Source: Bdellovibrio bacteriovorus (GTDB taxonomy: Bacteria; Bdellovibrionota; Bdellovibrionia; Bdellovibrionales; Bdellovibrionaceae). From it: 64,000 bases of DNA. Below the pieces are notes generated by a model. That model did no database searches and was not told the origin of the DNA. It saw only the letters and a program-made list of their open reading frames with translations. The DNA is taken from contig NZ_CP020946.1 in assembly GCF_002208115.1 (NCBI RefSeq), positions 3,410,001-3,474,000 on the forward strand, read 5' to 3'. Made by a program: the position numbers and the translations under genes. Shown here piece after piece: positions 2,716 through 25,034 of the stretch; the stretch's first letter is position 1, and every line of letters starts with the position of its first letter.

Positions 2716-2720
2716 TAACA

Positions 2721-2755
2721 AAAAAAACCCGGGCTGACATGCACCGGGTTTTTTA
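2721..2755. terminator. Bidirectional intrinsic terminator
   Basis: An A-tract and the arm ACCCGG are answered by CCGGGT and a T-tract, giving a GC stem flanked by A and T runs on both sides. It lies between convergent genes: the coiled-coil gene ending at 2715 and the six-gene minus-strand run ending at 2762. It can terminate both. Confidence 0.8.
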
Positions 2756-2761
2756 TTTTTC

Positions 2762-3994
2762 TTAATCACACTTGATGACTTTATAACTGACATCATCCTT
2801 GTTCATTACGAACAAATGCCGCCCACCAGGCATTGGCTCCCATAAAAACTTTTCCTTTGCCGGAGGAAGTTTAAAGCCGACGGAATACCTGACAACCTGA
2901 TTGGGTTCAATCAGGCGGGAAACATAGCTCCTTCTCCAGAAGATGTTCTCGCGGGCCTCTTCCGCCAACCACAAGTCTTTTTCCACCAGATTTCCGTCTT
3001 CATCGGTGACTCGCTTGAAGTCCACTGGCTTCAAAGTCTCATACTTTCGCGAACTGTCCAGACTCCCATCCACTAAAGGGGAAAACTGCCAGCGCTCACC
3101 GGCATCCAGCATTCCGCTGATTCTATGGCCGAAAAAGTTTTTACCAGCGACCATAAAGGAACCAAAGAATTCCACCGGCAAACTGACTGTGGATGGCTTT
3201 AATGAAAGCTCTTTGGCATCACTTTGATAAACTGAAATCTCTGGTTTATCTCCGGAGGTGTAAGCGATCACCTGTCTGGAAATACGCACCCGGGCTTTGC
3301 TATTTCCCTGCAATTCGGAACATTGACTGTACGTCAGTGCATTCGCACCACCCACCGTCAGTATGGAATCCGGCGTTTGAGCTCCCCCTCGAGGCACGAG
3401 ACCTTTCATGGTGAAAACATCGTAGAACCCAAGGACACCACCTTGAGTCACCAGCAGATTCTTGTCATTCAACTGCGTCCACTCTGCATCCGGACTCCAA
3501 GGCAGATTACACAAGGCCATGCTGCTTTTGGGTTGAATTTTTTCTTCACTGATCACAACCGGGAAGTACTTTTCCCTGCCTTCATACTCCCCGCGAACAA
3601 CGGCGACATTTCCGAAGGAACCAACAAGTGAAAAATGGTCACCACCACCAGGCAAAAGATCATTGTCAGATGAACTGATCTGTTCAAGATAAGGTGCCAT
3701 TTCCTGAGAGAATCCGATTCTCATCAAGCGCCACTTTTCAGACTTTGAATCCAGACCGCCGAAGTAGTACCGACCATCTGAACTTCTGAACAGGTGGGAC
3801 GCAAAAGACACCGGCTGTCCTTCATACTTCAAATGACCTTCATTTTCGATTTTACATATCAGCGGTGCGGCCTTCTGCGGCATTCCGTCATCCAGAAAAG
3901 TAACAAGTCCCACACCCAGGATCACCACCACCGCCATCAGGGCTGGCATCTTAATCATTAACGGCACTTTGCTATTCTTCACTTTCCTGTCCAT
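2762..3994 (-). CDS. Membrane-anchored extracytoplasmic protein, last gene of the surface-protein run
   Basis: The protein has 410 residues. A short basic N-terminus is followed by one membrane segment (about residues 13-31, IKMPALMAVVVILGVGLVTF), leaving some 375 residues outside the inner membrane. That part is rich in beta-strand patterns with repeated Gly/Asp turns (YYFGGLDSKSEKWRLMRIG, HLFVMNKDDVSYKVIKCD), compatible with a propeller-like fold, but I recognise no named family. The gene starts 15 bases after the stop of the von Willebrand A gene and is followed by the terminator at 2721-2755. It therefore appears to be the last of six co-transcribed genes. Confidence 0.7.
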   Translation of the reverse strand: MDRKVKNSKVPLMIKMPALMAVVVILGVGLVTFLDDGMPQKAAPLICKIENEGHLKYEGQPVSFASHLFRSSDGRYYFGGLDSKSEKWRLMRIGFSQEMAPYLEQISSSDNDLLPGGGDHFSLVGSFGNVAVVRGEYEGREKYFPVVISEEKIQPKSSMALCNLPWSPDAEWTQLNDKNLLVTQGGVLGFYDVFTMKGLVPRGGAQTPDSILTVGGANALTYSQCSELQGNSKARVRISRQVIAYTSGDKPEISVYQSDAKELSLKPSTVSLPVEFFGSFMVAGKNFFGHRISGMLDAGERWQFSPLVDGSLDSSRKYETLKPVDFKRVTDEDGNLVEKDLWLAEEARENIFWRRSYVSRLIEPNQVVRYSVGFKLPPAKEKFLWEPMPGGRHLFVMNKDDVSYKVIKCD

Positions 3995-4009
3995 TTGAAA
4001 GCTTTCCTG

Positions 4010-5416
4010 TTACTTTTTCGGGCTAATACAGCTTACTTTGATAAGTTCCCGTTTTCCGGTGCTGGCAAGTTCCTTAAAGAAGCACTTGTCATCGACCTTG
4101 ACCTGATAAGCGCCGGCTTTAAGAATAAACGGGAAGTTAGTCAGATAGTTCCCTATCAGCCTCTCACCATTGTCGTACAGATACAAGCCTCGCACGATCT
4201 TATCCTCGACAAAGAAGGCCGACGCCTCATTAACGTCATAAATATAGTCACCGTCAGGAATAATCAGATAGTCCTCGACGATCTTTTCAAAGAACGGCTC
4301 GCGGTAAAATCGCATGTTCCACTTTCCAGTGGGCAGGGAAACCCTTTCATCACTGGTGAAGGACTTAACCACCTTCTTTGTCTCGCGATCCAGCAATTGA
4401 ATTTTCATCAGCTTGTTTAAGAAGTTCGCCTTGAAGAATCCATCGCCGACAACACGCAAGGTGACCTTTCTTTTGGGCAACACCGTGAATGTGGCAAAAC
4501 GGTATTTCGGGCGAAGATTCACAATCGCCGTATAGCGCCCCGGAGGCACCTCAATCCCGATCCGCGCCTGGAACTTGCGATAGAGCTCTTTCTCATTCCC
4601 TTCCCTGAACAGAAACACCGTGGCGTCAGGATCCGGGCTGACCACAAAAAGATTCTTGTTGGGATTAAGCATCTTATCAAGTTCGTTCATCTTGTTATCG
4701 AGTTCGCTTTCACTGTCGGCCTGACTCATGTCTCCGATGCACTGAAGTTTCATCAGGGTGTCGGCCTGGTTGGCTAGTCCCAGAGCCACAACAAAAACCT
4801 TCAGATCCGTACCACTGTCCTTGATCTGCTTCATGATTTTGCAGGGATCTTCACCACAGGTTTCCTCACCGTCGGTAAAGAGCACAATTCTTTTCGGGCC
4901 TGCGTAGTGTTTGATGTCATTGTAAGAAGCCTGCAGTGACTTTCCGATCGGGGTCATGCCAACAGGCTCAAGATTCTGCACCGACATCTGAATCTGACCC
5001 AGCTGCGACTGTCCCGGCGTCAGCACCAGTTTGATGTCTTTGCAGTCTTTTTTCCTTTGAGACCCAAAAACCCGCAATCCACTGGAGCTCTTTTCTGTCC
5101 ACTGGGACAGCAGATACTTGGAAAGAATCTTTTTCAGAATGTAAATCTTGGTTTTGTTTCCGGACATTTCCTGACCCATGGAACCGGAGCTGTCTATCAA
5201 AAAAGAAACCAAAGGCGTCTGCTCACTGGACTTCATTTCCTCGGTAAACGCCTCAACCGCATGCTTGGCTTTCACTGCTGCGGGATCAAAATCAAGCTCA
5301 TCGAGCATATCCGATTTTTGCAGGCGAGTTGCACCCGCCGGAACAGTGTCATTGTCAGCATAAGCGTGCCCGGAAATAATCAGAGCAAGCAGCACCCAGA
5401 CATAAAGCATTTTCAT
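4010..5416 (-). CDS. Secreted von Willebrand factor A domain protein with intact MIDAS
   Basis: The protein has 468 residues and a signal peptide (about residues 1-20, ending SGHAYA). A VWA domain covers about 68-250. All three MIDAS elements are visible: DSSGS at 75-79, Thr155 in GMTPIG and Asp182 in VLFTDGEE, so it should bind a divalent metal and ligands as integrin I-domains do. The C-terminal half is beta-rich, with several short repeats of carboxypeptidase-regulatory or Ig-like appearance (PPGRYTAIVNL, LPTGKWNMRFY). No membrane anchor follows the signal peptide, so it is periplasmic or exported. It starts 6 bases after the upstream barrel gene. A surface or complex-assembly role is inferred from the neighbours. 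Confidence 0.85.
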   Translation of the reverse strand: MKMLYVWVLLALIISGHAYADNDTVPAGATRLQKSDMLDELDFDPAAVKAKHAVEAFTEEMKSSEQTPLVSFLIDSSGSMGQEMSGNKTKIYILKKILSKYLLSQWTEKSSSGLRVFGSQRKKDCKDIKLVLTPGQSQLGQIQMSVQNLEPVGMTPIGKSLQASYNDIKHYAGPKRIVLFTDGEETCGEDPCKIMKQIKDSGTDLKVFVVALGLANQADTLMKLQCIGDMSQADSESELDNKMNELDKMLNPNKNLFVVSPDPDATVFLFREGNEKELYRKFQARIGIEVPPGRYTAIVNLRPKYRFATFTVLPKRKVTLRVVGDGFFKANFLNKLMKIQLLDRETKKVVKSFTSDERVSLPTGKWNMRFYREPFFEKIVEDYLIIPDGDYIYDVNEASAFFVEDKIVRGLYLYDNGERLIGNYLTNFPFILKAGAYQVKVDDKCFFKELASTGKRELIKVSCISPKK

Positions 5417-5422
5417 ATCGGC

Positions 5423-6589
5423 CTACCTTGGCTTGAAGAAGCGGCTGACAAAGTCATCCAGACGCGCACCAAACATGATTTTAAAGAAGGTTTGAGACTC
5501 ACCATACGACTGCCCTGGCGGAATATTATAGAATCCGTCAGCGGGATCAACCACTTCGCCGGAGAATGACATGGAATCCTGCCGTACTCCCGCCAGAACA
5601 TCCACCTGCCAGCGTTTCACCCACGGAATCGCCTGAATATGCATCAGTGCTGTCGTTCCAAGCGTGATTTCATAAATCTGCCCTTTGCCCGTACTGCCGC
5701 GGGTAACTCCGCTGTCGCTGAAGGTCACCTCGGGGAAAAGATTTATGTCGGCATAGATACGGTTCCATGACCAGTCAAACCCCTTCGTGGATTTAAACAA
5801 AGGGTCACCCAATAAATAAGTGAATCGGCCACCCAGACCCAAACCCGAAGTTTTTGTACCCAGAACATTTTCGTCATCATTCTCAGTGACGAATTCGCCA
5901 CTTAATGAAATCAGCTTTACCGTAGGTCTTAGCTCTTTCCAAATCGGAAGAAATCTGTAGTGCAGAGCCATTCTCATTTCGGAATAGGACGTCTGCTCCA
6001 GGGTCCTGTTGTAGGATTTCAATGGGATCTTGGCGCCGTATTGATCAAATTCGATTCCAAAGCGCCACAAAAAATCTATGTACCATTCAAAATGGGTGTT
6101 CAGATAGCTGTAGTCGAATGTCTTGAAACCATTGGCTCTGTTTGAAGTCACCGTTGACAGATTTCCATTCAGCAAACCGGTTTGTATCTGAATATATCCT
6201 GGCTCGTACGTCTCGGGATCCGGTTCGGGAAACGGACTGGTGGACTCTGGAGGTGGCTGTTCAACAGCACCAGGAGTCAATCTGGCCAGATTGATAACTC
6301 TATCTTTAGTGGTTGGAATTTTTACGAGCGTTCCCGGCTGAAGTATCAAGACAAGTTTCCCGTCCTGAACAGTTCCCACTGATCCCTGTGCGATGATCTC
6401 GACGTTATCAGCATACAGTCTGACGACTGAAATCAGATCACCAACACGAAGCAGTGGAGTTCTGTCCACAACAAGAATGTCGTTGTCGACTTTAACAATC
6501 GGGACCGAATCTCTTTGTATCAGATTCAGTCCCCATTCCTGCGCATTGCTGAAAAATCCAAGAAGAATTACACAAAGCAGTTTAAGCAT
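5423..6589 (-). CDS. Predicted outer-membrane barrel protein with periplasmic N-terminal domain
   Basis: The protein has 388 residues with a signal peptide of about 16 residues (LLCVILLGFFSNA). Residues of about 17-105 form a small beta-rich domain (VDNDILVVDRTPLLRVGD, GSVGTVQDGKLVLILQPG), followed by a Pro/Glu-rich linker near 110-128. From about 130 on there are amphipathic, aromatic-rich strands typical of an outer-membrane barrel (GYIQIQTGLLNGN, HFEWYIDFLWRFGIEF, FKIMFGARL). The ATG overlaps the stop of the preceding 6.2-kb gene (TAATG), indicating translational coupling. It could be the outer-membrane partner of the giant lipoproteins. Family unknown; the barrel call rests on strand patterns only. 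Confidence 0.65.
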   Translation of the reverse strand: MLKLLCVILLGFFSNAQEWGLNLIQRDSVPIVKVDNDILVVDRTPLLRVGDLISVVRLYADNVEIIAQGSVGTVQDGKLVLILQPGTLVKIPTTKDRVINLARLTPGAVEQPPPESTSPFPEPDPETYEPGYIQIQTGLLNGNLSTVTSNRANGFKTFDYSYLNTHFEWYIDFLWRFGIEFDQYGAKIPLKSYNRTLEQTSYSEMRMALHYRFLPIWKELRPTVKLISLSGEFVTENDDENVLGTKTSGLGLGGRFTYLLGDPLFKSTKGFDWSWNRIYADINLFPEVTFSDSGVTRGSTGKGQIYEITLGTTALMHIQAIPWVKRWQVDVLAGVRQDSMSFSGEVVDPADGFYNIPPGQSYGESQTFFKIMFGARLDDFVSRFFKPR

Positions 6590-9500
6590 TACTTAGCCCG
6601 GTAGATATTTCCTGTGCTGCGGCTGATTAACAAAATCTGACCCGAAGTGTACACCGCGATGCTATCAATAGGGTTCGGGGCAGAGCTTGTGTATATCTTA
6701 TTATTTGTGAGATCCATGGTAAATATCTGATTGGAATCTCTCATAGTCCCTACCAAAGTCCGGTCGGCTGAATTCAACACAAATCTTCGCCCCTGCCCGG
6801 CCACATCAAATGGTGAAGCACTGAGTGTTCCCTTACCGAAGAATTGCAGATCCGAAGCCAACGGCGTGACGCCACTGCCATCTGCGAAGGAGGCGATCTC
6901 GCCAGTACCGGTCAACAGTACATAGACCTTGTTGGTCGTATCATCCAGAACGATGTCTGTAGGGCGTGTGTCCACATCCGCAGCCAGACCATTCCAGATA
7001 TTGAAGCTGCTTACCAATGTCGGAAGATTTCCTGACTTAACCGGATAGACGTTAAAGACATACATCTTGTGCTGTATTGGAGATTCCTGCTGTGTTGCCA
7101 CATACAATCTGTCCAGGTTCGCACTGTAAGCCATGCCGGATATCTTTTCTTTGGCTGCATTGAAGGAATATACCAAACCGCCATTTCCTGGCAGAAGATA
7201 GTCGTAATACAAAGCATCCTGAGCATCACTAGCATAGAAGACATAGTCCCCGAATGAAGCGACGATACGGTTGCCGGATGCACTTGTAGATGTGTACAGC
7301 TGCTTAAAGCAGGTGGCATCGCACTTATTCCCTGAACCCAAAGACAAAGCCGTCAGGTCGCCTCCAGCGATACTGACTGCCTGAGCTGTGGTGCTGTAGG
7401 GTCCAGAGCGACCCGGCTGTGAAACCAGATTGATTTTATAAGCAGAAGCACTGGTTTGCACTACTGCCAGACGTTGCGTACTGAATCCAGACGCCCAAGG
7501 CAATGTTTCATAGAAGTTCCAGACAGAACCTGACTTCAAAGATCCATTCGGAGTTGGAGCCACACCTTTGATACTCAGGAAGTCCCAGACAAAGTTCTTC
7601 AAAGATGAACCGTTTTTATAGCTTCCAGAGAAAATCAAGTGATCCAGATTTCCACTGGCAGAATTTACTGAGTATGGAACCTCATTCAACCAGGTGATGG
7701 ACGATGGCGTAAAGCTGGATGGCGACGCCTTCCTTGCATTGGAAAGATTAAACACGCTTTCCGCAAGAAGATAAACGTTTCGTACACGCGCTGTCCATTC
7801 ACGGGTCGTGACAAAGTTACCGTCTGTCACTTCAACTTTAATTTTTTGAATACCGGCCGTGGTCTGCCCAGTGTTCACCAATGAACCGGCTGAATCATTT
7901 GGCTTATATTTGAATTCAGGTCCTTCATCTTCAGTCAGGACGCCGTTCACATACCAACGATAGAAAAGGGTGTCATTGGCATTTGAATCCGTTGCAGTAA
8001 CCTGGAAGGTACTCTCGGACTTTTCAGTCACCAAAACGGAGTCAGACGCCGGGAAATAGCTATTGATTACCGGGGCCTGCTCTAGAGGTGAATAAGGATC
8101 CTGCACGATTAGATTAAAGTATGTCGTATCAGTCTCGTTGGTCTTGGTGTCTTTAATCTGAATTCTGACCACATGACCTGTGCCACCAGACGGTGTCACA
8201 TCATCGGGAATCTTAGGTGTCCACGTGATCACACCGTTACTGTCCACACACATCCCGTTGGCCACGCCACAGGCCCGTGGCGAATTCAACAATGTATAGG
8301 TTAGTGTATTACCCCGTGAGTTACTGACGATGGTTTTATAAGTAAATGGATAAGTCGCCAGACCACCTGCCGTCTGAGGCATAAAGTGCAGCGGCTGACC
8401 TGCCAGATCGCTTCTTGGACTGATAAAGTATGGCGGAGCTTTTACAATCAAACGTAGAGGAGCCGAACTGACTGTTGGAGTCAGCGCGACGCCATCCCTA
8501 TCCACATCTCCGTTGTCAGTCAAATAAAGCGTCGCCGTATGAGTTCCGATATGCCCACGCTGCGGGCACCACTGAAGACGATAATAGTAGAACCGAACTC
8601 CGGAAGAAGTATTTGTTCCCGTGGACATGATGTAAAGCTTCGGCACGGCAAAGTCAGGATTTACAACGCCATTTTTCACGCAAGTCGCGATCCCAAGATT
8701 TCTGTTATAACTTGGATCAAAAGTGGTGATCTCTTCAGACCAGGTTTTAGATTGCGCATGACATGTCGTCACCCAGGATGAGCTGGTATCCAGCGTCGGA
8801 TGAAGCAAATTTGTGCCATCATTATTTTTACACAACGTCAGCTTGGTCACAAAGGTGCCGCCACCAGGGATATTCATATCCTTGTCGTTCACAAAGAAGT
8901 CTTTATAGAAGTACGTGTCCGCCTCGATAGCCAGCTGATTGTTTGTGGCGATACCGCCAAATGTCGGATATTGATTGGTATTTACGACACGCACTTTAAA
9001 GAACAAGTCCTGTGATTTTGAAATAGCCGGACTGGTGCTGGCATCTGTCGCACGCATCTTCAGAATAATTCCGGCAGCACCTGAAAAAGCCTTTGCATGA
9101 CCGTCGGTGGGCGTCCACTTAAACAATGCCGTCGTACGGCTACCTTTACCTGATGGGTCATCTTCACGTTTATTGATCGTCAGACTGACGTTGACTCCTG
9201 GTGCACCACCATCAGTTCCGTTTTTAAGATCTCGCGTACCAAGCAGTGATACACTGACAGTTTTCAATTCTGTACCGCGATTTGGATCCTTCAGATAGAA
9301 ATAGAAAGATCCTTCTTTACCCTCCTGGAAGGTCCCCATATCGATAGGATTGGCAATGGTCGTTCCAACCCCTGCTGCCAAAGGTGCAAATGAGCTGTCT
9401 GACAAAATCGGAGCCACGTTCTTTTCAACAACCACCAGACTCAGGTTCGTCTGAATAATAGCGGCTGCAGATGTCGATCCACCAGACCAGGATGGATACT

Positions 9501-12500
9501 CGTAACCGGTAAGCTTGAATGAGAATGTCCCTGACAGATCCTCATCATGTGGTTGATAGCGCAAATAACACCGGGAGCTTTCAAAGTAACCCTGATAAGC
9601 CGCTCCCGGCGCCGTGTTCGTACAAGGTGTACAAGTCGAAGCATAGGTAGCTCCGGCCTCGCGACAGAATTTATAAGCGCCTTGCGGAGCTGTCCCCACC
9701 GATTGAATACCCATACTAAAATAGTCGAATTTGTCGATCGGATACCAGTAAGGGTCCACTTGATAATAGGGTGACGGAATGCCTGAACCGGAATCTGACA
9801 GCTCGACTATTCCATCTGTCAGATCGATTCCTTCATTGGCATAAATGACCGACGACGAAACCAGACGAGAAGATGTGTTCCAGTAAGAATAGCGGACCTG
9901 ATATGGCAGCTCCGAAATATAGCGCGGATCAGATGTTAAAGTGTCATACCGTCCGATATTAGAGGTCCGTTTCACCCAAACATCTGCTGTCGTTTGACCG
10001 ACAGCAAAGTTCACCGGCGAAATGACCGAGTAAAGCGCAAACAGTGAGTTGCGGACGATAAATCCTGCAGGAATAGTAAATGCAGTCGTGGTGGAAGTTC
10101 TGCTGAAACGAACTTTCCCTTCAAATGTAAACTTACTCAAAGCCAAGGACGCCGGATTGTCCACCGTCAAAGTCGCCGCCCCCGCAGGCAATGCACTTAC
10201 GATCGTGTTGATTGTTCCATGGTCTGAAATATATCCATCCAAGGCACGATACTTGAATTCCCGAGTGGTGTTTCCACTGAGAAACTTATCGTCTTTCCAG
10301 ATATTTCCCGCATTCACGTCAACCAGATTAGATCCCGTAGTCGCGGACAGCACCGGCCCACCGGGCTGGGCACTGGTGATACTCATGGCATCGCCAGCAT
10401 TAAAAGTGATCCGTTTTCGCCATACCGGCACAGATACACTGCTGCTTGCCGCCGGGAAAACAAATGCGGTCGGGATTTCAAACTCAATACTTGGATTGCC
10501 CGTTGTTTTCACAACGAACCCTTTGGGAATCGTGACATCTGTTGCAAATATTCCCGGACGATAGAATGTCACCAGGCCCTGATCAGAAATCACTGCGGTA
10601 TTTTTGACTGCGATCTGCGCGTCGGCCAAGGCAGAACCCAGAACCGTCACAGAATTTGCGGCGGCATCCCGGTTTACAGCCACAACCGGAATATAAGCTT
10701 TCAAATCCTGTGCATTCAAAGTCACCGCAAGCGCAGTCTTATAGGCAACAACATTTCCCGAAACCCCACTGGTCGTCGTCACAGCAAAATTCTTGGGAAT
10801 AACCACATCACCGGTATGAGTCGTTGCCCGGGAAAATACAACATAGCCAGCAACGTTATTGATCGCAACATCACCCGCAAACACTGTGCGCATCGGGAAT
10901 GTTCCACCCTCTTTTCGGTACACCGGACCATCACTGGAAATGGTTTCTTTAAGCACCAATGGGTAGCCCGTTGAATTGTCATACATAAGCTTCAAACTGT
11001 CCAAATTGGTTGAATCAAAGCTGAAGAACTCAAACCAGACCGGACTGCCACTATAGCTTGTGGCCTCAAGATTACGAATAACCTGTGGATTCACAGAGTT
11101 CAAGGTTGTCTGCGGAACTCTGGTCAGCAAACACGGTACGGTGATACGGGGTTCAGCTTCCAGATCAAAGACTTCAGCTTTACTGATTCCTCCGTGATTA
11201 TCCTTCACACTGACGGTGATATTCCCCTTAAGTGCGGCCCGCATTGGCTTCCACGTATATGTAATACGAGTTCTGGCTGCTGTGATTTCCCGTGGCGGAA
11301 CTTCGGTCAGATCCGCAAACAAAGTACCACCGATGGTGATCTCCATCGTATCCATTGGATCCGCAGCCGGCGTCGCCACGTTGTCCGGGTCTGTAATATC
11401 AACATAGAAAGTATACGGATCACGGCCCAAAGGATCCTGGTCCGAACAGGTATCCCATTCGCCCGGAGTCATCGTCGGATCTTTAGGTGTCAGTCCGGCA
11501 ATGACCGGTGCCGAGTTGATATCCACAATTGTCAGAGGAATAGTGACAATGGCCAAACCACCCCGACCGTCTTCGATACGGGCAATAATGTTCGTAGAGC
11601 GTTTACGAGCATCTTCGTTGTTCGGCGTCCACTTCATGGTGATCTGGGTTTTGCCGGTCAAGGTCACCGGACTTGGATTCCCATCAACATAGATCGGGCG
11701 CGATCCGCTGATACTGTCCACCACGACACTTAATGGATCGCCATCGTCATCCAGGAACTGAACCGTACAGGTCCATTCCTGATTTTCCCTGGCTTCTTTA
11801 GGGCATTCAAAATAGCTGATCGGACGGCGATTGACGTCCTCAACGTAAACATCCCAGTTTGCCGTCAGGATCTTACCGCCATCAGTAATCAAAACAGTGA
11901 TCAGGAAAGGATCCAGACGACCGTCATCATAGCCAGGAGTCCAGCTCATCCGGCCTTCGTCAGAAGCAACAGGGGTTCCTTCCAAACGCCACGCATAGAA
12001 CAGCTGATCGCCTTCGGGATCTCGTGCCGTGGCACGCATGGAAAGCTCTTTTTGTTCACGAATGCGCTGATCCACCAGCTTGGTCGAAGACTTTTCATCC
12101 AGAATCGGCGCACGGTTGTTCACACCGAACGGATAAGGTGCACTCAGCACATCCCCATTGGCGTCATAGTTAAAACTGACCTGAAAATCATTTTTTAGAA
12201 GTTCCAGGAACGTATGATCGACCGACAGACCATTGCGAATGAATCCATACAGCAGGTCTGTATTGAAGCCTTCCTGCAGACCGAAAAGCTCCATACGTTC
12301 TTTTTTGAATTGTGTAATATAGGCAATAATTTTTTCGAATTCCAAAGAGGAATAAGAAGATATGGAACGGTCCGGATAGTTGGAGATCAGATTGAAGGCC
12401 AATGTGCTTTCAAGGCTTGGTTTTACCACAACATCCGGGAATATCAGGCTGTACCAGGTGGTGGTGCTGTATTCCATGATCGTTTTCAGAACCATCGGGC

Positions 12501-12780: not shown

Positions 12781-12801
12781 TTATCCCCCAACATTAACTT
12801 C

Positions 12802-15800
12802 CTAATACAGCAGGAAGAATGTGCCGGTTTGAACACCCTTTGTTGTTCCATATCCACTATGCTGCTGCGTTGGAACGAGCAGATCCATACTGCCATCCCC
12901 GTTAACGTCCCCCGCGCTGCCAAGATCATAGAAGTACCATGGTCGAATCGAAACTTCAGTTTGACGAACAATAAACGGCTTCACCTTGCCGGCGCTGTCA
13001 GCAACAACAACGCTATCTGGAATATCTGAAGTATGCAGACCAGTTGAGCTGCCGAAGAACATCACACCACGGCCATAACCATCAACTGCGTTAATTGGAT
13101 CGTCCCAATAAGGAGACCCCAGCAACACGTCATCAAAACCATCATCATTGAAGTCCCCGGTTGTTCTGCTGGACATCAACGTCATACCGTATTGCTGACC
13201 AGATTCCGCATCTTTCACATAGAAGGCCTGCGGTGCCGGCTTGGGCGTATTGCTGCTTCTGTTACATTCAATCAGCGGCGTAATCCCAAGGGCAGGGTTC
13301 GAGAACTCCACTTGTGTATTCAGATTGCTGAATGCATAAGTCCAGACTGCACTTGTATTATCCGATCCGCAGATCGGCCCGTAATAGACATAACCCATGC
13401 CCGCTTTAGCCAATGAAGACGATGGGGACTGCACAGGAGCTGTTACAACCAGATCCTCGTAGCCATCTCCATTGATGTCCCCCGGATTCGCAATTCTGTA
13501 TCCAAACAGTCGATCCGAGCTGTTCAAGCCACCAAATAACGGAGGCATGATAGCCCGCGTGGTTCCTGCGGTACCATTTCCGGTTCCACCATTTCCATTC
13601 AGTGTGTTATCCGAAGCCTGGAAGGCAGTATCACTCGTACAAGTCGACGCAGCATACGGAGCATAATAGCTTTTGCGTTCAGCAGCCTGAATACCCTGAG
13701 CTCCACCCCGATAGATGAAGATTCTGCCATAGCTTTTCTTCGGATTGGTATCATAGTAACAAGCCACGTCTTCCCAACCCGGAGCCGAAACATACAGATC
13801 GTCATAGTCACCGTTACGCATAATTGCGACGCTGTGACCGAACTGGTGTCTCATGGTATCGTAACCATACGGAACGTTTTCCACCATCGGACTGTATAGG
13901 TACTGAACCTTACATTTATTATTAGGAGCACCGGTGCAGACTTTATCAGCCGTTGCTGCCGTTTCGGTTCCATAAGTATCGATCAACCAAGAGCTGACAC
14001 TTGATGGATTCACAAAATTTGGGCTTGGCTCATCGCCAGCTGTATACGATGGGCTTGCTTTCTTCGGCGTCTGCACACCCTGTGCAGACCCATAAAAGAT
14101 CGCCAGTTTCCCCATGTGCACCGAGCCTCTGCCAGAATAACAATCTTCATCCGCCACAGGAAGACACTGCCAGCCCTTTGCTGGTGCTGCACCCGTTGGA
14201 GGCGGCCCCGGGTTGATCCCGTCTGCTACATTCATTTTGAACATTGAAGTCGCATGGCCATCAACCAGCACAAGATCTGACTTGCCGTCACCGTTGAAGT
14301 CACCGTGATAGACATACTGCGCACGATGCTTGAAGGATGCCGCATAGTCGGCATCTTCAACTGAATTTGCACCCCAGATCTTGGTGATGATCTGAGGGTC
14401 ACCGATGGCCGCCACCCACGATGGGCTGTTGACTGCAGACAGCCCCGATGCAGAACCATAGAAGACCGTCACTTGTCCGGTTGCATTTGGATCCACAAAG
14501 GCAACATCCGCAAATCCGTCGCCATTGACGTCACCGGCTGCGAAGGCTCTCAGCGCCCAAGAAGCGGAAAGACTGGAAGGACGGACAATCAGCTGAGGCA
14601 GAGGAATATCGTCATTGGTGATTCCCTGTGCCGGAGCCACCGTTGGATAACAACTGGAGCTGTCTGTCGCCGCATCTTTGAAGATCAAAGCGATATTCTC
14701 AAGACAGTATGACGTTGAAATCAAACCCAGCTTGGATCCATAGTACACCACCGCATCAGTAATCTTACCGGTGCCGGTTTCAGATGCTTTCGAGATCTTT
14801 GCCACGACGTCATCGTATCCATCACCGTTGATATCACCAACGAAAGAGGCCGACTCATATCCAAAGACCTGCATGCTTCCAAGATTGTCCACAATTTTGA
14901 AATCAGGCGTTTGGTTCACACCGGAAAGGACAGAACCGCTACTCAGGAAACCGTACACAGCACCGCCGCCCAATTTGTGCGAGCGATCCAGGTAAGCTCC
15001 GGCAGCCACATCCAGATACGGACGTCCACTCGTGGCGAAATCACCATCGAAGTTACCGATAGCCACAGATCTGCCAAAATAGGAATACGTCAATGACTGA
15101 TCATTATAGAACTTAAGGAAGGTACTGGTCAGACCATAGCCTTTATAGCTTGAGAAAGCATAGACAGCACCGGCGCTGGTTCCCACCGTCGTGTCACCGG
15201 TAGCACCCACCACAACATCCATCTGACCATCGCCAGAGATATCGCCGACAGCGATAGCACCGGAATGTGCACCCAGATGTGCCAGCGAATTAATCGATTC
15301 ACTTCGCACCAATGTGGGTGCACAGTTCATTTTTGTGGATGCCGTTGTGTCACTGAATGCGGCGCAATTCGGCATCTGATCAAGCCAGTCATTTGTTATG
15401 TTCGACCCATTCAAGCGATAGAAAGAGTCATATTCATACAACCGGCCCGCATTACCATAGAAGGTCCATAGTGCACCGGAATTGGTCTTGGTTGGGGACG
15501 AGAAGAAGCCAGTACCAACTACGATATCCGCCCAGCCATCGCCATTGGCATCTGCAAAAGCAGTTTTGGTTGTATTTGTACTGTCATAGCGTGATGAGTC
15601 GCCAAGAATAGCAACAGAGCTACCAAAAGCTCTGGACACATAGCCCGACAAATCACCGCGCGGGAACAGAATACGGAATGAAGACGCATCCGCCAGGCAG
15701 GAATAGTGCTCCAAATTCAACATTCCTCGGCGCCCGCACTTCCAGAAAGTTTTACGATATGGTTGATCAATATCTGAAATTGCCGGAGCAGAATCTCGAC

Positions 15801-17982
15801 CACGGCCAAAATAAATAAATGCCGCACCTGGCGCGCCACCAGTAACTGAAATGCTCCCGCTGTCGGTTCCATTCCCAGCTTTAATGCCATAGGCATTATT
15901 AACACCGTTAGCCGTGAAAGACGTCCCACCAAACCAACCACCATCACCCGGTGTTACGGATTTACAGTTGTCGGGGCATGAACCACCAGTAGGCAGCTTA
16001 AAGTTCGCCGAATCGGATGCATCCGGATAATTGAATCCCGGAGCCCCAATGATCATATCAGATCCACCCACAAGTGTGCCGTCAGGTCTTCGAACTTTGA
16101 ACTTCCCATCCACATCAGCACCGCCGGCAATGGAGAAACCAAACTTCATGCCTGCAGTTGGAATTGGTGGATAAATCTGAAGGAATCTGAATTTGGCATC
16201 AGAAGCACTCTGCGCAATAGATGCTTCCGGAGTTTCATAACCAACTCCATAGGCCGACCCAAAGTACATGGAAACATATCCGACATTGGTGACATATTTG
16301 GATTCACCAGGCAGAGCAGCATTGGCTACCCCCTGCCACACCCCGCGCGGAGCACCAATGGCAATGTCATCGTATCCACCGGCATTGAAGTCACCGACGA
16401 AGGCAACAGACAAGCCGAAATTATTACGGATGCGGGCCCAACTAGGCACTGTTTGTGCCGGGTCATAGTAACCAGCTGGATATAAAGCTGTGTTCGGCCA
16501 CAACATGACCGCCGAACAAATCGCCCCCTCCAGAACCCCGTTACAAGTTTCGATATTCTGCTGCATGTCCTTAACATGCCCCGGTGCTTTCAGGCCTTTT
16601 TCACTGCCGAAGAAGACAAATGCCGCACCTTGATCTTCGATCCCGCCACTGTCAAACCCAGGGGCACCAACCAGCAAGTCCTGACATTGATTAGAACCAC
16701 TGATGTCCCCGTTCACATTTCCTTTACCCGCCAGTGCATAGCCGAATTGACTGTACCTGTCCAAATCATCAAATGTGATGATCTGAGGATCTTTACCGGG
16801 ACGTGCCGGACTGATCAACGGCTCGCCAGTTCTGTTCAGCTTGTAAACACCATTGATAAGCTCGGAATAATAAATAACAACGGCCCCGGCCTGGGGTACC
16901 GTATTCCCCAATGAAGTGATGGAGGCATTGGGCATACCGACAGCCAGATCCTCATATCCATCACAGTTGAAATCCCCGGAAGTCATGGCTTCACCAAGGA
17001 ACGCCACACCCAAATCAGAATTCAGCACCGGAGGTGATTGTTTGATCGGGGAAATACCTTTGATATAGGTGGACAGTCCGTCAAACACTCTTGTCTCATC
17101 GACGGTGCTGTCTTTGTAATTTACGCGAACCTCAATGTTCTTAGCCTCGCCAATAGGCAGATTGGCTGATGAAGAAAACACCAAAGTGCCCTTGCCAACC
17201 AGTGGATCCGATATCGCCTGCCCGTCTTTATAAACTCGGGTGGTGTAGTTTTCGTTTCGATACTGCAGATTTACAACTGGCTCGACATCCACATAGGGCA
17301 AAGAACCAATGGAAATACGGCTGAGCTTGACCACGGGCTCCGGGAACGAAGACGTTGTATTGGCCGTTACAACCTTGGTGGAACGTTCATAAGTTCCATC
17401 TTTATACTTAGCCTGAACAACAAAGTGATAGCGGCTGGAACCGTCCAGATTCTGGAACACATACTGGTTGGCAATCGTGGAAGCGTTATAAACTGTCCAG
17501 TCAGACGTATTGGCAGCTGTCGGATCTTCCTGCTTTTTATAGAAAATCAAATAGCTATCAACCTGCTTGTCATATTCCCAGGAAACCGTGACGGAGTTTT
17601 CAGTTCCCAAAACCGCCTTGGATACGCCGGCAAATCGCTTCCAGGTGGTCACCGTGACCTCGCGCTCGCCGCCGACCACGCTGTCTCCACTTTTTCCGAC
17701 AACCTTATAGGTATACGAAGTATCCGGACTCAGATTGCTGACAGTGTATTCACCAAACTGAATCACATCCAGAGGTTCAGTCTTGGAACTGTCATAGATT
17801 TCATACTCTTTGTAACGATCATGCAGGTTCCAGATGATTTTAACCGACGTCGGAGATAAAACCTCGATGCGGTCCACACCGCTGAAGTCCACCAGCAAGG
17901 AACCGCTTTCAAGTTTCTCGGTACAAGAAACCAGTATCGTCAGAAGAGATGTCAGAGCAAATATCTTCCTAATAAAGCACAT
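12802..17982 (-). CDS. Giant FG-GAP repeat lipoprotein (1726 residues), paralogue of the upstream gene
   Basis: The lipoprotein signal ends at Cys20 (LLTILVSC). Two fibronectin type III domains follow at about 28-112 and 113-208 (LSPTSVKIIWNL, LSPDTSYTYKVVG). From about residue 320 to the end there are roughly 14 FG-GAP repeats, each pairing a Phe/Tyr-Gly strand with a calcium-loop motif, for example GDFNCDGYEDLAVG, GDINGDGYDDVV, GDFNGDGKSDLVLV and GDVNGDGSMDLLVP. In integrin alpha chains such repeats build a seven-bladed propeller, so this chain could form two. The N-terminal FnIII region and the C-terminal repeat match the upstream gene closely in pattern, pointing to tandem duplication. 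The ATG has a GGAG site and lies within the end of the preceding gene (14-base overlap). Confidence 0.9.
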   Translation of the reverse strand: MCFIRKIFALTSLLTILVSCTEKLESGSLLVDFSGVDRIEVLSPTSVKIIWNLHDRYKEYEIYDSSKTEPLDVIQFGEYTVSNLSPDTSYTYKVVGKSGDSVVGGEREVTVTTWKRFAGVSKAVLGTENSVTVSWEYDKQVDSYLIFYKKQEDPTAANTSDWTVYNASTIANQYVFQNLDGSSRYHFVVQAKYKDGTYERSTKVVTANTTSSFPEPVVKLSRISIGSLPYVDVEPVVNLQYRNENYTTRVYKDGQAISDPLVGKGTLVFSSSANLPIGEAKNIEVRVNYKDSTVDETRVFDGLSTYIKGISPIKQSPPVLNSDLGVAFLGEAMTSGDFNCDGYEDLAVGMPNASITSLGNTVPQAGAVVIYYSELINGVYKLNRTGEPLISPARPGKDPQIITFDDLDRYSQFGYALAGKGNVNGDISGSNQCQDLLVGAPGFDSGGIEDQGAAFVFFGSEKGLKAPGHVKDMQQNIETCNGVLEGAICSAVMLWPNTALYPAGYYDPAQTVPSWARIRNNFGLSVAFVGDFNAGGYDDIAIGAPRGVWQGVANAALPGESKYVTNVGYVSMYFGSAYGVGYETPEASIAQSASDAKFRFLQIYPPIPTAGMKFGFSIAGGADVDGKFKVRRPDGTLVGGSDMIIGAPGFNYPDASDSANFKLPTGGSCPDNCKSVTPGDGGWFGGTSFTANGVNNAYGIKAGNGTDSGSISVTGGAPGAAFIYFGRGRDSAPAISDIDQPYRKTFWKCGRRGMLNLEHYSCLADASSFRILFPRGDLSGYVSRAFGSSVAILGDSSRYDSTNTTKTAFADANGDGWADIVVGTGFFSSPTKTNSGALWTFYGNAGRLYEYDSFYRLNGSNITNDWLDQMPNCAAFSDTTASTKMNCAPTLVRSESINSLAHLGAHSGAIAVGDISGDGQMDVVVGATGDTTVGTSAGAVYAFSSYKGYGLTSTFLKFYNDQSLTYSYFGRSVAIGNFDGDFATSGRPYLDVAAGAYLDRSHKLGGGAVYGFLSSGSVLSGVNQTPDFKIVDNLGSMQVFGYESASFVGDINGDGYDDVVAKISKASETGTGKITDAVVYYGSKLGLISTSYCLENIALIFKDAATDSSSCYPTVAPAQGITNDDIPLPQLIVRPSSLSASWALRAFAAGDVNGDGFADVAFVDPNATGQVTVFYGSASGLSAVNSPSWVAAIGDPQIITKIWGANSVEDADYAASFKHRAQYVYHGDFNGDGKSDLVLVDGHATSMFKMNVADGINPGPPPTGAAPAKGWQCLPVADEDCYSGRGSVHMGKLAIFYGSAQGVQTPKKASPSYTAGDEPSPNFVNPSSVSSWLIDTYGTETAATADKVCTGAPNNKCKVQYLYSPMVENVPYGYDTMRHQFGHSVAIMRNGDYDDLYVSAPGWEDVACYYDTNPKKSYGRIFIYRGGAQGIQAAERKSYYAPYAASTCTSDTAFQASDNTLNGNGGTGNGTAGTTRAIMPPLFGGLNSSDRLFGYRIANPGDINGDGYEDLVVTAPVQSPSSSLAKAGMGYVYYGPICGSDNTSAVWTYAFSNLNTQVEFSNPALGITPLIECNRSSNTPKPAPQAFYVKDAESGQQYGMTLMSSRTTGDFNDDGFDDVLLGSPYWDDPINAVDGYGRGVMFFGSSTGLHTSDIPDSVVVADSAGKVKPFIVRQTEVSIRPWYFYDLGSAGDVNGDGSMDLLVPTQQHSGYGTTKGVQTGTFFLLY

Positions 17983-20900
17983 AGATCACTCCAGTTGAAT
18001 ATGCTTGTCCTGACGGATGAGTTCTTCCAGTTGAACCCACAACAACATCCAGCGCACCATCACCGTTGACATCGCCAACAGCATTTTGACTCAAGTACGT
18101 GTATTCATTTTGCGTCCGCAATGGCAAATAAACCAAAGAGGGCTCACAGATCGGACTGGATCCGCCGCGGTAGCAGCGAGGTGTCGGAGTCGGCGTTTCC
18201 ACGATTCTTAAACCCAACTGACTGCCGAAGTAGACTACGTAGGCGCCCGTGCCCTCGATCACTTGATCAGAGTCATAAGTTTTGCCCGGAGCATTTACCA
18301 ACAGGTCCGGATAACCATCCAGATTCATGTCACCAATGGCGGCAAGCCCCACCCCGACCTTGTCGCCTGGAACAAACAAAGACGATTGAATTCTTTGTGG
18401 TTTTGGCTGCAATACATTGGCGTGCATCGTATTAATTGGCAGCGGATTTAATGCCGAATCAAAGTAGTCTGTGCTGTTCAAATCCGTCGCTCCGTAGAAG
18501 GCATAACTGCCGCCAACAACAGCTCCGTAGAAGACATAGGTAATACCGGTATTCGCAGACGATGAAGAGGCAAATGGTGCCGAAAGCGCCACGTCGTCAA
18601 TATCATCTCCGTTAACATCCCCCAGACCGGCAAGGCTGTAACCAAACATTTCCCCTGGGGTGGATCCCACAAGTTTCTGGATTGGAGTGTATGACAAACC
18701 CCGATCGGTTCCACGATACAGATAAGCACGTCCTGAGTAGGAATTATAGCCAGGATCAGAAACCAACAGTTCTGAATAGTCATCACCCGCGGCTTCATCA
18801 AGTGAATCCAAGCCTATTGCGCCCCAGCCAAAGTACACACCCGAATCGACAGAAGCAATCTGTTGAATTGAGCAAACGGCCGGCTTGGCAGCAGTACACG
18901 GCTGTTCTACAACCACGTCGGCTTGAGTTTCAGATATTACATTTCCACTGCCATCATAGGTCACGTTACGCAGCAGAATGGTACCTGTCGCACGATTCAC
19001 CTGCAATCCGCTGGCACCGCCATAAAGCACGAACAAGCGTCCACGATTTCCACTGACAAAGTTACCAACAGCATCCGCCGGAATAACAGAATCCGGCAGT
19101 TTGTAGGTTCTTGCGCCGGAACTGGACCACATGCCTACGACAATATCGCTGTAACCATCGGCATTGAAGTCACCATAATGAACACCCCGATTGTTTGAAC
19201 GCATTTGAGAGAATTTAAAAACATCCGGTGTCGAAGACTCTCCGCCATACAAATAACCATCATGGAAGACGGCAACAGCCGAAGAGGAATTTCGGGCAAA
19301 CCAAAGAGGGTTGTTACCCACTGGATTGATCGACGGTTCGCCTATAACAACCCCAGAACTTGAACCATAGAATATATAGCTGCCTTTGGAACCGATCACC
19401 ATAATATCGTCATAGGCATCACCATTGACACTGCCAATACGATGGTACGCACTTCCCAGATAAGCATCCGCCGTACTGGAAAGTATGGTAGGAGAAGTCG
19501 GAACGGAAGGCGTCTTCGACGGCGCTGGTGAAGTGATCAACCCGCTGGCACTGCCATAGAAGATAATCAATTCATATCCCTGCCCCGTGGCAATATGGGT
19601 CATAACATCATCGTACCCATCGCCGTTAACATCCCCGACCGCTTTTCCTTCTTCAAAGGAATAGTTCAGCTCCTTACTGAAGTTGGGCTTGATGGTCTCG
19701 GACGCTGTCGTCACTGAAGATGCAAAGGCACCTTTTGAATTAAAGATGAAGAGCGCACCATTTCCGTATGCAGGAGCATTTACGTATGGGGCACCGGCAA
19801 CAAAGTCACCTTTTTCATCTCCATCAAAGTCACCACCCGCCAGGCTGCCAAGGCCAAAGCTTGCACCTGAATTCAGATCCTTTGGATAAATAATTGAAGG
19901 TCCAAACGGATTGATACCACCACTGTACCAGGTACACTTGGTCGTACATCCGACAGTGTCATCATCAGACAAGACCGGTGCGGTGATTTCAGTGATCGTG
20001 CTTCCATCATCCTCTGTTCCAAATGTCGAAACATCCGGACTGTAAAGATAAACAACCCCGTTATTGGTAATATTCGAAGTGCCCGAGCTGTTCTTCACAG
20101 ACCTGAATGGCGCTGACACCGCCAAAGATGGCAAGGCGCGAGACTTGGATTCCACATCAGGTACCGTACCCATGGAGTATCCAAACTGAACACCGGTTTC
20201 CGCTGGGCTTGTGAAGATCATCTGATGGTTGCAATGCAGCAGGGTTCCTGTGGCAACAGCGTTGTTTCGGCTGTTACAGGCAACTGAATTGGCAGCAGCA
20301 ATCACTTGACGCCCTTGAACCAATCCACTGTTCAGAATCCCCTGGATTCCACCCGTGGTATATGAAGACGACTTCGGCGTCATATAATAACCAAACACCA
20401 CTCCGGCGTTCGTAGCGCCCTGAACAGTTGATTGAGGCGCACCTACAAACAAAGAACCACTGATGTCCGGCACCGCATTGGAAGTTTTAATGATACTTTC
20501 AAGCGGGTATCCATTCTGATTTTTAACCCCGTGGATACTGAAGCCGTAACCCTTCACGGTCACATTCGCAGTTTCCTGAGCGCCCCCTGCGGCCGCCATA
20601 TCAGGATAGGACTCCTGACAATCCCAGCTTGAAATTTTATAGCGATCAGCTCCGGAGGTTGGATTCACCCCTTTACAAGTCACAATAGAGCCTCGTCCCG
20701 ATGCACGGTCCGGGACACCAATCACCAAATCATCACACTTGGTGAAATCAAAGCCCTTGGCTCGTTCAAGATTGGAAGGACGGAACTGAGCCCCCGCCGG
20801 GCTGCCGGTAATACAAGTACGGGAATTATATGCGACACCCAAGGCGCTAGCAAAGCCATCCAGGTATCCGTACCCAAATCCATCAGATAAATCCGCATCA

Positions 20901-22759
20901 AAAGAACCATCTGTAAGAAATCCGGTAGCGCTGAGACCTTCAGCCGTGATTGGAGCATGATTCAAAGTACTGCTTGGCGGATAAAGTCCCCAAACACTTC
21001 CACGCAGGACATGAACAGCACGCGCGTATGTGCCCGTTTGCTGAACACCAATTGCCAGATCATCATAGCCGTCGTTATTGAAGTCACCGAAAGCGATGGA
21101 TTTGACGTCTTTCACGTTCGTGTCATCCAGCTGAACCGGACGACATTTATGTGATGACGGTTCACACGTCACTTCATTTGTGCCATATGATGTACCACCG
21201 CTACCAGAAACCAATCCAGTCACAGGGTCGCCAAAGATAACAAAGACCTTTCCATTGTCTGTGGTGATCGCCAGATCATCACAAGAATGGATCTTTTTTA
21301 CCTTTGCCAGTGGCATCTGTCCGGAACCAGTAAATGGAACGTGCAGATCATTACAACTGCCAACTGTACTTGCTTTCGTATCCGGCAAAGTTTCCGGATC
21401 AAATTCTTCCGATCCATAACGGCTGTAACAGTCACCATTCGCATTACCCACCGCCATCTTCAGCCCCAGACGTGCCTGAGCCCCCACAGATGGATAGTAA
21501 ATCAGCTGAGGATTTGGAGCCTTGGCCCCTTCCGTCGGCAATTGGTCCGTTTTCAAGCGAGGATCCGGAGTATATGGCGTCCCGTTTTCATCCTGCTGGT
21601 CAGCCGGTTGGTATCCATAATAAACAACAACCGCACCCAAACCGGCACTGCGATAGGCATTCACCACAGGTGTTGCCCGCGGAGCCGTCACGGCCACATC
21701 ATCAAATCCGTCACAGTTAAAATCACCTACAGCTGTATTCTGACCCAGATCCTGAATTCCAAGACCACCGTTCACCAAACGTGGATAAAGCGGGTCTTTC
21801 GCACCGGCTCCTTCAAGAGAACGAATCAAAGGTTTCGTGAAGGCACCTGCGCCTTCGGTGCCAATATTTACGATTGTTGCGGCTGAACCGGAGCTGACTT
21901 TTGCATACCAGTCTTTTTGGCCAGGGCCGATTGAAGTCAGGGCACGGAAATAGTCATTCCCCTGAACTGAAGCCACACGAACATCGGTTGCCCGATCAAA
22001 GATCTCTGTCTTATATGTCGTGTCTCCGTTTTCAGTCCAGAACCATGGATAGTTTCCGGAAAACGCCATGTTGATTTTTACCTGCGGAAGGTTCGGCAAA
22101 AGCGACTGAACCAGCATGCACGGAGCTTTGGAATTGATATAAGCCAGAGTGTTGTTTTCCGGCTGTGAAGTTCCGTCACCATATTTTGCAACAACCCAGA
22201 AACAATACTTCGAACCACTTGCCAACGTCGTCAACGAAGTCTGCCCTTTGCCAACAACTGAAGCTGTTGGAGACATCAGGTTCCAAGACTGGGACTCCAA
22301 ACGAGTGAACACCTGGTATTCAACGTTTTCGCCATTTTTAAACCAGTTCACTTCCACAGCACCATTGGTCTGCGGAATCACGCCTGAACTTGGTACCGGC
22401 GTGAAGTTTTCCAGAGTACTTACTGCAACGAATTTTTCAATACCGACTTCGGTTTCATCTTCCGCCTGAACACCCACAACAGAGAACTGATAGGACGTTG
22501 CCGGATTCAAACTGTCCACGATTGTAGAAGCAAATGTCACAGTTTTGCGAGGAGTGCTCTCACCTTTGAGATAAATTCTGTATGCTTTAAATCGGGACTG
22601 CAGTGTCCAAGAAAGACGAATTGCTGTCGGTGAAAGTGCCACAGCAGAGTCCACGCCGTTGAATTTTGACGGCAAAGTGGTTCCCTGCAAGCCTGCCTTC
22701 GCACACGAAAGCAAACTACCGCAAATTAGGAAATACAGAAGTGTGTATTTTAACGACAT
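17969..22759 (-). CDS. Giant FG-GAP repeat lipoprotein (1596 residues), first gene of the surface-protein run
   Basis: From the ATG at 22759 the lipoprotein signal reads MSLKYTLLYFLICGSLLSC, with Cys19 as lipidation site; an in-frame GTG nine bases upstream (22768) is the alternative start. Two FnIII domains follow (LSPTAIRLSWTL, LNPATSYQFSVVG). About 13-14 FG-GAP units then run to the C-terminus, with calcium-loop motifs such as GDFNCDGFDDVAV, GDFNNDGYDDLAIG, GDVNGDGYDDVM, GDFNADGYSDIVVG and GDVNGDGALDVVVG. Spacing, order of domains and the last repeat before the terminal VLY parallel the downstream paralogue. The protein should be lipid-anchored in the envelope and calcium-dependent. An adhesion function is inferred from the integrin-like architecture, not shown. 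Confidence 0.9.
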   Translation of the reverse strand: MSLKYTLLYFLICGSLLSCAKAGLQGTTLPSKFNGVDSAVALSPTAIRLSWTLQSRFKAYRIYLKGESTPRKTVTFASTIVDSLNPATSYQFSVVGVQAEDETEVGIEKFVAVSTLENFTPVPSSGVIPQTNGAVEVNWFKNGENVEYQVFTRLESQSWNLMSPTASVVGKGQTSLTTLASGSKYCFWVVAKYGDGTSQPENNTLAYINSKAPCMLVQSLLPNLPQVKINMAFSGNYPWFWTENGDTTYKTEIFDRATDVRVASVQGNDYFRALTSIGPGQKDWYAKVSSGSAATIVNIGTEGAGAFTKPLIRSLEGAGAKDPLYPRLVNGGLGIQDLGQNTAVGDFNCDGFDDVAVTAPRATPVVNAYRSAGLGAVVVYYGYQPADQQDENGTPYTPDPRLKTDQLPTEGAKAPNPQLIYYPSVGAQARLGLKMAVGNANGDCYSRYGSEEFDPETLPDTKASTVGSCNDLHVPFTGSGQMPLAKVKKIHSCDDLAITTDNGKVFVIFGDPVTGLVSGSGGTSYGTNEVTCEPSSHKCRPVQLDDTNVKDVKSIAFGDFNNDGYDDLAIGVQQTGTYARAVHVLRGSVWGLYPPSSTLNHAPITAEGLSATGFLTDGSFDADLSDGFGYGYLDGFASALGVAYNSRTCITGSPAGAQFRPSNLERAKGFDFTKCDDLVIGVPDRASGRGSIVTCKGVNPTSGADRYKISSWDCQESYPDMAAAGGAQETANVTVKGYGFSIHGVKNQNGYPLESIIKTSNAVPDISGSLFVGAPQSTVQGATNAGVVFGYYMTPKSSSYTTGGIQGILNSGLVQGRQVIAAANSVACNSRNNAVATGTLLHCNHQMIFTSPAETGVQFGYSMGTVPDVESKSRALPSLAVSAPFRSVKNSSGTSNITNNGVVYLYSPDVSTFGTEDDGSTITEITAPVLSDDDTVGCTTKCTWYSGGINPFGPSIIYPKDLNSGASFGLGSLAGGDFDGDEKGDFVAGAPYVNAPAYGNGALFIFNSKGAFASSVTTASETIKPNFSKELNYSFEEGKAVGDVNGDGYDDVMTHIATGQGYELIIFYGSASGLITSPAPSKTPSVPTSPTILSSTADAYLGSAYHRIGSVNGDAYDDIMVIGSKGSYIFYGSSSGVVIGEPSINPVGNNPLWFARNSSSAVAVFHDGYLYGGESSTPDVFKFSQMRSNNRGVHYGDFNADGYSDIVVGMWSSSGARTYKLPDSVIPADAVGNFVSGNRGRLFVLYGGASGLQVNRATGTILLRNVTYDGSGNVISETQADVVVEQPCTAAKPAVCSIQQIASVDSGVYFGWGAIGLDSLDEAAGDDYSELLVSDPGYNSYSGRAYLYRGTDRGLSYTPIQKLVGSTPGEMFGYSLAGLGDVNGDDIDDVALSAPFASSSSANTGITYVFYGAVVGGSYAFYGATDLNSTDYFDSALNPLPINTMHANVLQPKPQRIQSSLFVPGDKVGVGLAAIGDMNLDGYPDLLVNAPGKTYDSDQVIEGTGAYVVYFGSQLGLRIVETPTPTPRCYRGGSSPICEPSLVYLPLRTQNEYTYLSQNAVGDVNGDGALDVVVGSTGRTHPSGQAYSTGVIYVLY

Positions 22760-23089
22760 ATACTTCACAGTATAAGTATCGGAATTTATGAATGGAATTA
22801 AAGATCTATCGATGCTCGTTCTTGGTACAGTCCAGTTCCTTTCGTATCAAACTGGCCTTTAGTTTTACACTCTTTCAATGATTGAGCTGAACTCGCATGT
22901 ACGGCATCTGATATTCCACAATGTTGATCCGTTGGGAAAATGCGGGTAACACTTTAAAATTACTTAGCCTCCCATGCAGCGGTCATTTAGGACTTTTGCC
23001 TCATTGCAAGTCAGCAGTATGTGACTATTTTGCAGGTCATATTCCATCACTTCAGTATACTGACCTTGTCTTCGCCAAAGGAGGAATTC
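22760..23089. promoter_or_regulatory. 330-bp divergent intergenic region with a 12-bp palindrome
   Basis: No gene is visible here. The region separates the start of the 20-kb minus-strand run from the plus-strand gene at 23090 and must hold the promoters of both. A perfect 12-bp palindrome, TCAGTATACTGA, sits at 23052-23063, its right edge 26 bases before the 23090 ATG, and contains a TATACT that could serve as a -10 element. On the minus strand another TATACT (22774-22769) lies immediately before the first giant lipoprotein. Neither promoter can be assigned with confidence, because no convincing -35 element was found. Confidence 0.4.
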
Positions 23090-23509: not shown

Positions 23510-23526
23510 ACATTCTTTATGCGGTA

Positions 23527-25018: not shown

Positions 25019-25034
25019 GTTTTAGTCTCCAGAC

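Follow-up and report, generated by a model that had tools for sequence, protein, structure and literature searches.

The 64,000-nucleotide stretch of the Bdellovibrio bacteriovorus chromosome analyzed here (NZ_CP020946.1, positions 3,410,001 to 3,474,000; hereafter the window), which lies in a complete genome of 3.77 Mb (G000), contains a 20-kb run of six minus-strand genes for surface proteins. The products are two giant lipoproteins with fibronectin type III (FnIII) domains and FG-GAP repeats (P0006, P0005), a giant immunoglobulin (Ig)-type lipoprotein (P0004), a predicted outer-membrane barrel (P0003), a secreted von Willebrand factor A (VWA) protein (P0002) and a membrane-anchored protein (P0001). 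An earlier note, made from the sequence alone, had proposed that these six genes encode a calcium- and metal-dependent adhesion complex, perhaps for prey attachment. We found that the set runs past the terminator of the run to genes for MotA and MotB and, outside the window, to a gene for a FliF-FliG fusion protein, and gene neighborhoods give good support to placing the six-gene run, as its surface half, in a conserved set which numbers about 13 genes. On balance we lean towards reading the six genes as the outer half of a flagellar-derived, ion-driven motor which would move or tension surface adhesins.

Linkage was surveyed in 141 genomes of the order, and an initial neighborhood comparison covered the 14 genomes which have an orthologue of the barrel or the VWA protein. 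Near these orthologues the genes for MotA, MotB, two small exported proteins, a PEGA/TPR lipoprotein, a membrane protein and a 575-residue protein, the fusion, were found to recur. The full-length fusion, the P0006 giant, the VWA orthologue and the MotA2 clade were carried by the same 16 of 141 genomes, with one weak extra match to P0006 beyond these, and the barrel was found in 15 of the 16; in G019 and G078 some genes of the set appeared only as fragments. The odds of such identical sets arising by chance are 2e-21, a figure which ignores kinship and adjacency. Gene order and strand were rearranged in six genomes (G025, G059, G062, G063, G109 and G110): the VWA and P0001 genes lie on the opposite strand in G025, and the barrel and VWA genes come first and the giants last in G109 and G110. 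The fusion gene stops 2-3 bases ahead of the first FG-GAP gene in G063 and G062 (loci L075 and L077), and G063 has the genes for the fusion, both FG-GAP proteins, the Ig giant, the barrel, the VWA protein, the PEGA lipoprotein, MotA, MotB and P0001 consecutively on one strand. Persistence of linkage despite shuffled order and strand carries more weight than the identity of the genome sets. Within the genus the main set is present in 9 of 24 genomes, and at least two more have a paralogous set only.

The 575-residue neighbor matched the Pfam families FliG_M (7.8e-8) and FliG_C (4.5e-12), and a profile of its family matched FliG crystal structures with an E-value of 4.6e-29 over residues 342-551. 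In the structure model of an orthologue from a Bdellovibrio sp. (L073; 584 residues, predicted local distance difference test score (pLDDT) 73) residues 14-146 resembled the RBM3 domain of FliF (Z 11.5, 2.0 Å over 101 residues, 23% identity) and residues 272-565 resembled full-length FliG (Z 13.5). Since the profile matches FliG and the model matches both RBM3 and full-length FliG, the protein as modeled is a reduced FliF fused to FliG, with a membrane helix and a disordered linker between the two. It has an RBM3-like domain and one membrane helix beside an N-terminal signal-like segment, rather than being a complete two-helix FliF separate from FliG. The acidic residue equivalent to FliG D289 is kept in 12/12 sequences and the basic residue equivalent to R281 in 10/12.

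The MotA and MotB of the window are probably the counterparts of MotAB2 (bd3021/bd3020) of HD100, an assignment made by position rather than by annotation. The MotB membrane helix SYADMMTLLF, which covers the ion-site region, is conserved, and a basic residue like R90 of MotA is kept in the set in an alignment made by eye, with residue numbering and roles taken from PMC12505986. No rod, hook, filament, export gate, FliM or FliN gene was found among the open reading frames (ORFs) of the loci read, and the FlhA and FliM genes of G000 are located far from the set, at 0.56 Mb.

Two further observations concern neighbors of the fusion. A gene for a membrane protein with HAMP and SpoIIE phosphatase domains (L054:11726-13489, plus strand) lies just past the fusion gene of G000 and converges on it; similar N-termini are found in proteins of 500-585 residues flanking several paralogous sets, and these may be signaling partners. 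In L101 (G305), L105 (G316) and L104 (G319) an extra protein of 325-500 residues is encoded directly before the fusion and matches the fusion profile weakly; this is possibly a second RBM3-like ring protein.

The layout of the six genes and the nature of their products (Table 1) were as the earlier note had described them. ORF coordinates agree with a chain in which neighbors overlap by 14 and 1 bases or are separated by 21, 6 and 15 bases, all within the 22 bases that had been given as the largest gap. P0006 is read from an ATG at 22759, with an alternative open GTG at 22768. The terminator that was said to close the run is a strong hairpin flanked by a T-tail on either strand, and the run shares it with a convergent gene (2305-2715); our promoter and terminator scans returned sites no more frequently than in shuffled sequence, and the loop of this real terminator exceeds what the scan allows. 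The identical order with near-zero gaps was found in six further Bdellovibrio genomes (G004, G009, G011, G016, G018 and G023), so the arrangement is not due to chance, and it is plausible that all six genes share one transcript.

FG-GAP repeats fall into 8 stretches in P0006, with six DxDxDGxxD calcium-loop motifs and the lipobox LLSC, and into 11 stretches in P0005, with nine loops of this type and the lipobox LVSC; the number of loops is almost unchanged among P0005 orthologues. Lipoboxes were found in P0004 to P0006 and in their orthologues; the GC-LEE lipobox of the P0004 family is conserved and is weak in P0004 of this genome. The C-terminal 300 residues of P0004 (6589-7500, minus strand), which had no Pfam match, resemble by eye a YVTN/NHL-type beta-propeller. 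P0003 matched no Pfam family and a profile of it found no relative among PDB sequences; its model, built from four sequences, has 10 long strands, and in Foldseek the best match was the outer-membrane adhesin OpcA (E 3e-7) followed by omptins. The N-terminus of P0002 is signal-like and its metal-ion-dependent adhesion site (MIDAS) is intact, with DSSGS (75-79), T155 and D182 all invariant in 13/13 orthologues. Orthologues of P0001 share 26-30% identity and occupy the same gene place in relatives.

Table 1. Features of the gene set (positions refer to the window unless stated; aa, amino acids).
Feature	Position	Strand	Evidence or remark
OMP0, small exported protein, 210 aa, 3' part only	1..387	+	Gene start outside the window; conserved in relatives
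MotB-type stator subunit with plug and OmpA domain, 319 aa	381..1340	-	Pfam MotB_plug 2e-19, OmpA 3e-17
MotA-type stator subunit, 266 aa	1343..2143	-	Pfam MotA_ExbB 3e-23
Bidirectional terminator hairpin	2720..2757	both	-18 kcal/mol, z -3.9; ends the six-gene run
P0001, protein with single N-terminal membrane helix, 410 aa	2762..3994	-	Hydrophobic segment 8-39
P0002, secreted VWA protein with MIDAS; C-terminal part specific to its family; 468 aa	4010..5416	-	Pfam VWA 5e-9
P0003, outer-membrane barrel predicted to have 10 strands, plus a small beta domain at the N-terminus, 388 aa	5423..6589	-	AlphaFold model, pLDDT 71
P0004, giant Ig-type lipoprotein, 2063 aa	6589..12780	-	Pfam Big_9 4e-8
P0005, giant lipoprotein with 2 fn3 and FG-GAP repeats, 1726 aa	12802..17982	-	Pfam FG-GAP 1e-51, fn3 5e-10
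P0006, giant lipoprotein with 2 fn3 and FG-GAP repeats, 1596 aa from ATG	17969..22759	-	Pfam fn3 6e-9, FG-GAP 5e-43
PEGA/TPR lipoprotein, OMP2 (small exported protein), TM3 (membrane protein) and FliF/FliG fusion	G000:C1 3405495-3409674, outside the window		Recur in relatives

Related motor sets were found more widely in the phylum. The main type reaches a second class and was present in 26 of 369 phylum genomes, and profile matches to the wider family were obtained in 39 of the 369. In these other loci a PEGA lipoprotein, MotA, MotB, a FliF/FliG-like protein of about 550-670 residues and a small exported protein stand beside different giants, in some cases with another VWA protein; in several loci the FliG part does not reach the Pfam cut-off, and in others it clearly exceeds it. 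In the second class, FG-GAP giants and an Ig giant adjoin the motor genes of G305 and G316, and no VWA gene was present within the 40 kb read around the motor genes of these two genomes. G120 and G122, which are 97 and 99% complete, have related motor sets with lipoproteins rich in calcium loops on the same contig, and neither FlhA nor FliM was found in them. In a MotA tree the main-set and second-class MotAs were joined with support of 97/99, while flagellar-type MotAs were placed on long separate branches apart from this clade; those flagellar-type sequences come mainly from genomes that have no FliG fusion, and long rows in the tree leave some deep joins unsure. A paralogous set, seen in L059, L060 and L069 (G016, G013 and G063) and in part in L058 (G038), appears to be a second adhesin-motor variant: it has a VWA protein of about 450 residues with a DYSGSM motif, three large lipoproteins of 800-1050 residues where complete, a PEGA lipoprotein, a FliF/FliG-like protein, a small exported protein and MotAB.

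From this content we infer motor activity and a biological output, as well as ring assembly, rotation and coupling to the barrels. MotA/MotB stator units would use the ion gradient to work against the FliG domains of the one-piece FliF(RBM3)-membrane helix-FliG protein, copies of which would form an inner-membrane ring. Force would pass from the RBM3 ring through the membrane proteins and the PEGA/TPR lipoprotein to the outer-membrane barrels, which may serve to hold the giants (FG-GAP and Ig) and the VWA/MIDAS adhesin or to display them. Since barrels, lipoproteins and a MIDAS adhesin are encoded, the site of output would be the outer membrane, and the most likely output would be movement or active tensioning of adhesins, as in gliding or in pulling or twisting on a surface or prey cell. 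We also hold it possible, with somewhat more hesitation, that sets of this kind represent a class of non-flagellar motor, rotary or ratcheting, new to the literature, in which MotAB and a one-piece FliF-FliG rotor drive giant FG-GAP/Ig lipoproteins and a MIDAS adhesin; its members would have other surface parts across Bdellovibrionota, some in species without recognizable flagella, and could include the Bdellovibrio gliding motor.

Several observations weigh against this proposal. FliG D288 is lost in the fusion family and, in the alignment made by eye, the acid like E98 of MotA is mostly lost in the set. The set is missing from 15 of the 24 genomes in the genus, and the lifestyle of the genus in general therefore does not depend on it. 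Carriers of the main set also possess the flagellar genes for FlhA and FliM, and the HD100 literature lists MotAB2 among three flagellar stator pairs. With regard to the residues, the MotB ion site is conserved and the charges at FliG D289 and R281 are mostly kept while D288 is lost and the E98-like acid mostly so, which makes force generation through a related, non-identical MotA-FliG contact plausible.

The last two of these points, together with the published change in MotAB2 expression in a fliL mutant, would suit a set in which MotAB2 and the fusion serve the polar flagellum as an accessory stator/rotor module, a lineage-specific add-on whose surface proteins decorate the sheath or pole. 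We consider this unlikely: the set is absent from most of the order's flagellated genomes, its FliF ring domain and FliG would duplicate flagellar ones which are separate genes, related sets are found in G120 and G122 without FlhA or FliM, the MotA of the set falls outside the flagellar-type clade, and no MotAB2-FliL interaction was detected in the literature. Absence of flagella was considered for five genomes in which no flagellar FliG was found (G063, G028, G074, G075 and G094) and was rejected, as FlhA and FliM are present in them; this leaves G120 and G122 as the only genomes with neither.

Slightly less likely still is an energized envelope module in the manner of Tol/Ton, in which the motor would power the steps by which the giant lipoproteins are exported, assembled or placed in the outer membrane, or would tether or tension the envelope, and no cell movement would result. 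The MotAB relatives TolQR and ExbBD do energize the outer membrane, and the giants need a route to the surface and have barrels encoded alongside; however, a ring-forming RBM3 domain and a full FliG are torque-transmission features foreign to Tol/Ton, and no TonB- or TolA-like protein was recognized in the locus. The least probable of the explanations weighed is that the six genes alone encode a passive calcium- and metal-dependent adhesion complex and that the motor genes are mere neighbors. The six genes do form a tight operon with its own terminator, with FG-GAP propellers and a MIDAS VWA protein present, but motor and surface genes are kept together through rearrangements and across classes, with a single run in G062/G063, and motors of this type are also found beside other giants. 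What stands of the adhesion complex proposed in the earlier note is a conserved surface operon with calcium-type FG-GAP repeats and a MIDAS VWA protein, which is probably adhesive. An integrin-like pairing of propeller and VWA domain as its core and organizing principle was rejected, given the FG-GAP/motor loci of G305 and G316 with no VWA gene in the 40 kb read.

Elsewhere in the window, on the plus strand, a gene like 6-O-methylguanine-DNA methyltransferase (23556-24047, E 3e-29) lies upstream of the six-gene run. A second gene like DNA polymerase III alpha, of the DnaE2 type (27729-30923, E 2e-83), is preceded by two ORFs (25753-27745) at the usual place of the imuA/imuB mutasome genes, one of them of 440 residues and without a Pfam match.

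In the open-access literature searched, MotAB2 (bd3021/bd3020) figures solely as a stator of the flagellum, no paper combines FliG, FG-GAP and MotA, and no description of this gene set was found. The locus tags of the presumed HD100 neighbors (Bd3015-3019 and Bd3022-3028) returned nothing on Bdellovibrio in the same literature, and transposon sequencing (Tn-seq), RNA sequencing (RNA-seq) and microarray papers do not name genes of the set in their main texts. A 2026 review describes the Bdellovibrio gliding machinery as unidentified, and its motor, adhesins and force transmission as a major open challenge (PMC13104615). Within a single gene set the locus offers candidates for each of these, at least in carrier species. 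If FliF and FliG work with MotAB outside the flagellum and are coupled to adhesins, the flagellar torque core could be redeployed as a separate surface machine, and the view of Bdellovibrio MotAB2 would change.

Compared with the flagellar motor, the set has MotA, MotB with plug and OmpA domain, the FliF RBM3 domain and full-length FliG, with the charges at the R281 and D289 positions mostly kept. It differs in that FliF is cut down to RBM3 and fused to FliG, and in that its locus, without FliM/FliN, rod, hook, filament or export gate, is linked instead to surface lipoproteins and outer-membrane barrels. Integrins have an FG-GAP propeller in the alpha chain and a VWA domain with MIDAS in the beta chain. 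The set shares with them FG-GAP repeats with calcium loops, which match integrin alpha weakly, and a VWA domain with intact MIDAS, whereas here the two are on separate proteins which are lipid-anchored or secreted, and the VWA protein is not always linked; no C-terminal membrane helix of the kind in integrin transmembrane legs was found on the FG-GAP or VWA proteins. The Bdellovibrio MIDAS adhesins Bd0875, Bd1483, Bd0767 and Bd3132 have been tested, and Bd0875 acts in prey invasion (PMC11003981). P0002 is likewise a VWA/MIDAS protein of Bdellovibrio, but it is unnamed in that study and has its own C-terminal part and a motor-locus setting. The gene bd3099, called a gliding-cluster VWA gene in the literature, was considered as the counterpart of P0002 and its position does not fit.

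In G109 alone, AglRQS/ExbD-like and FHA/TPR-like genes which look Agl-Glt-like by eye lie less than 10 kb from the barrel and VWA genes (L049-L050, about 17856-27602 of the joined region). P0002 itself was rejected as a CglB, with 20.4 bits against the NCBIfam cut-off of 200, and no family model named Glt matched the scanned proteins, GltA-K not having been compared directly as sequences. As in the Agl-Glt system of Myxococcus with CglB, a putative ion-driven inner-membrane motor is encoded with periplasmic proteins, outer-membrane barrels and what in Myxococcus is a VWA surface adhesin. Its stator genes are of the MotA/MotB type, unlike AglRQS, which is of the TolQR/ExbBD type; FliF and FliG are present and the giants differ. 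The best reading by analogy is that the set would work like Agl-Glt-CglB without belonging to that system.

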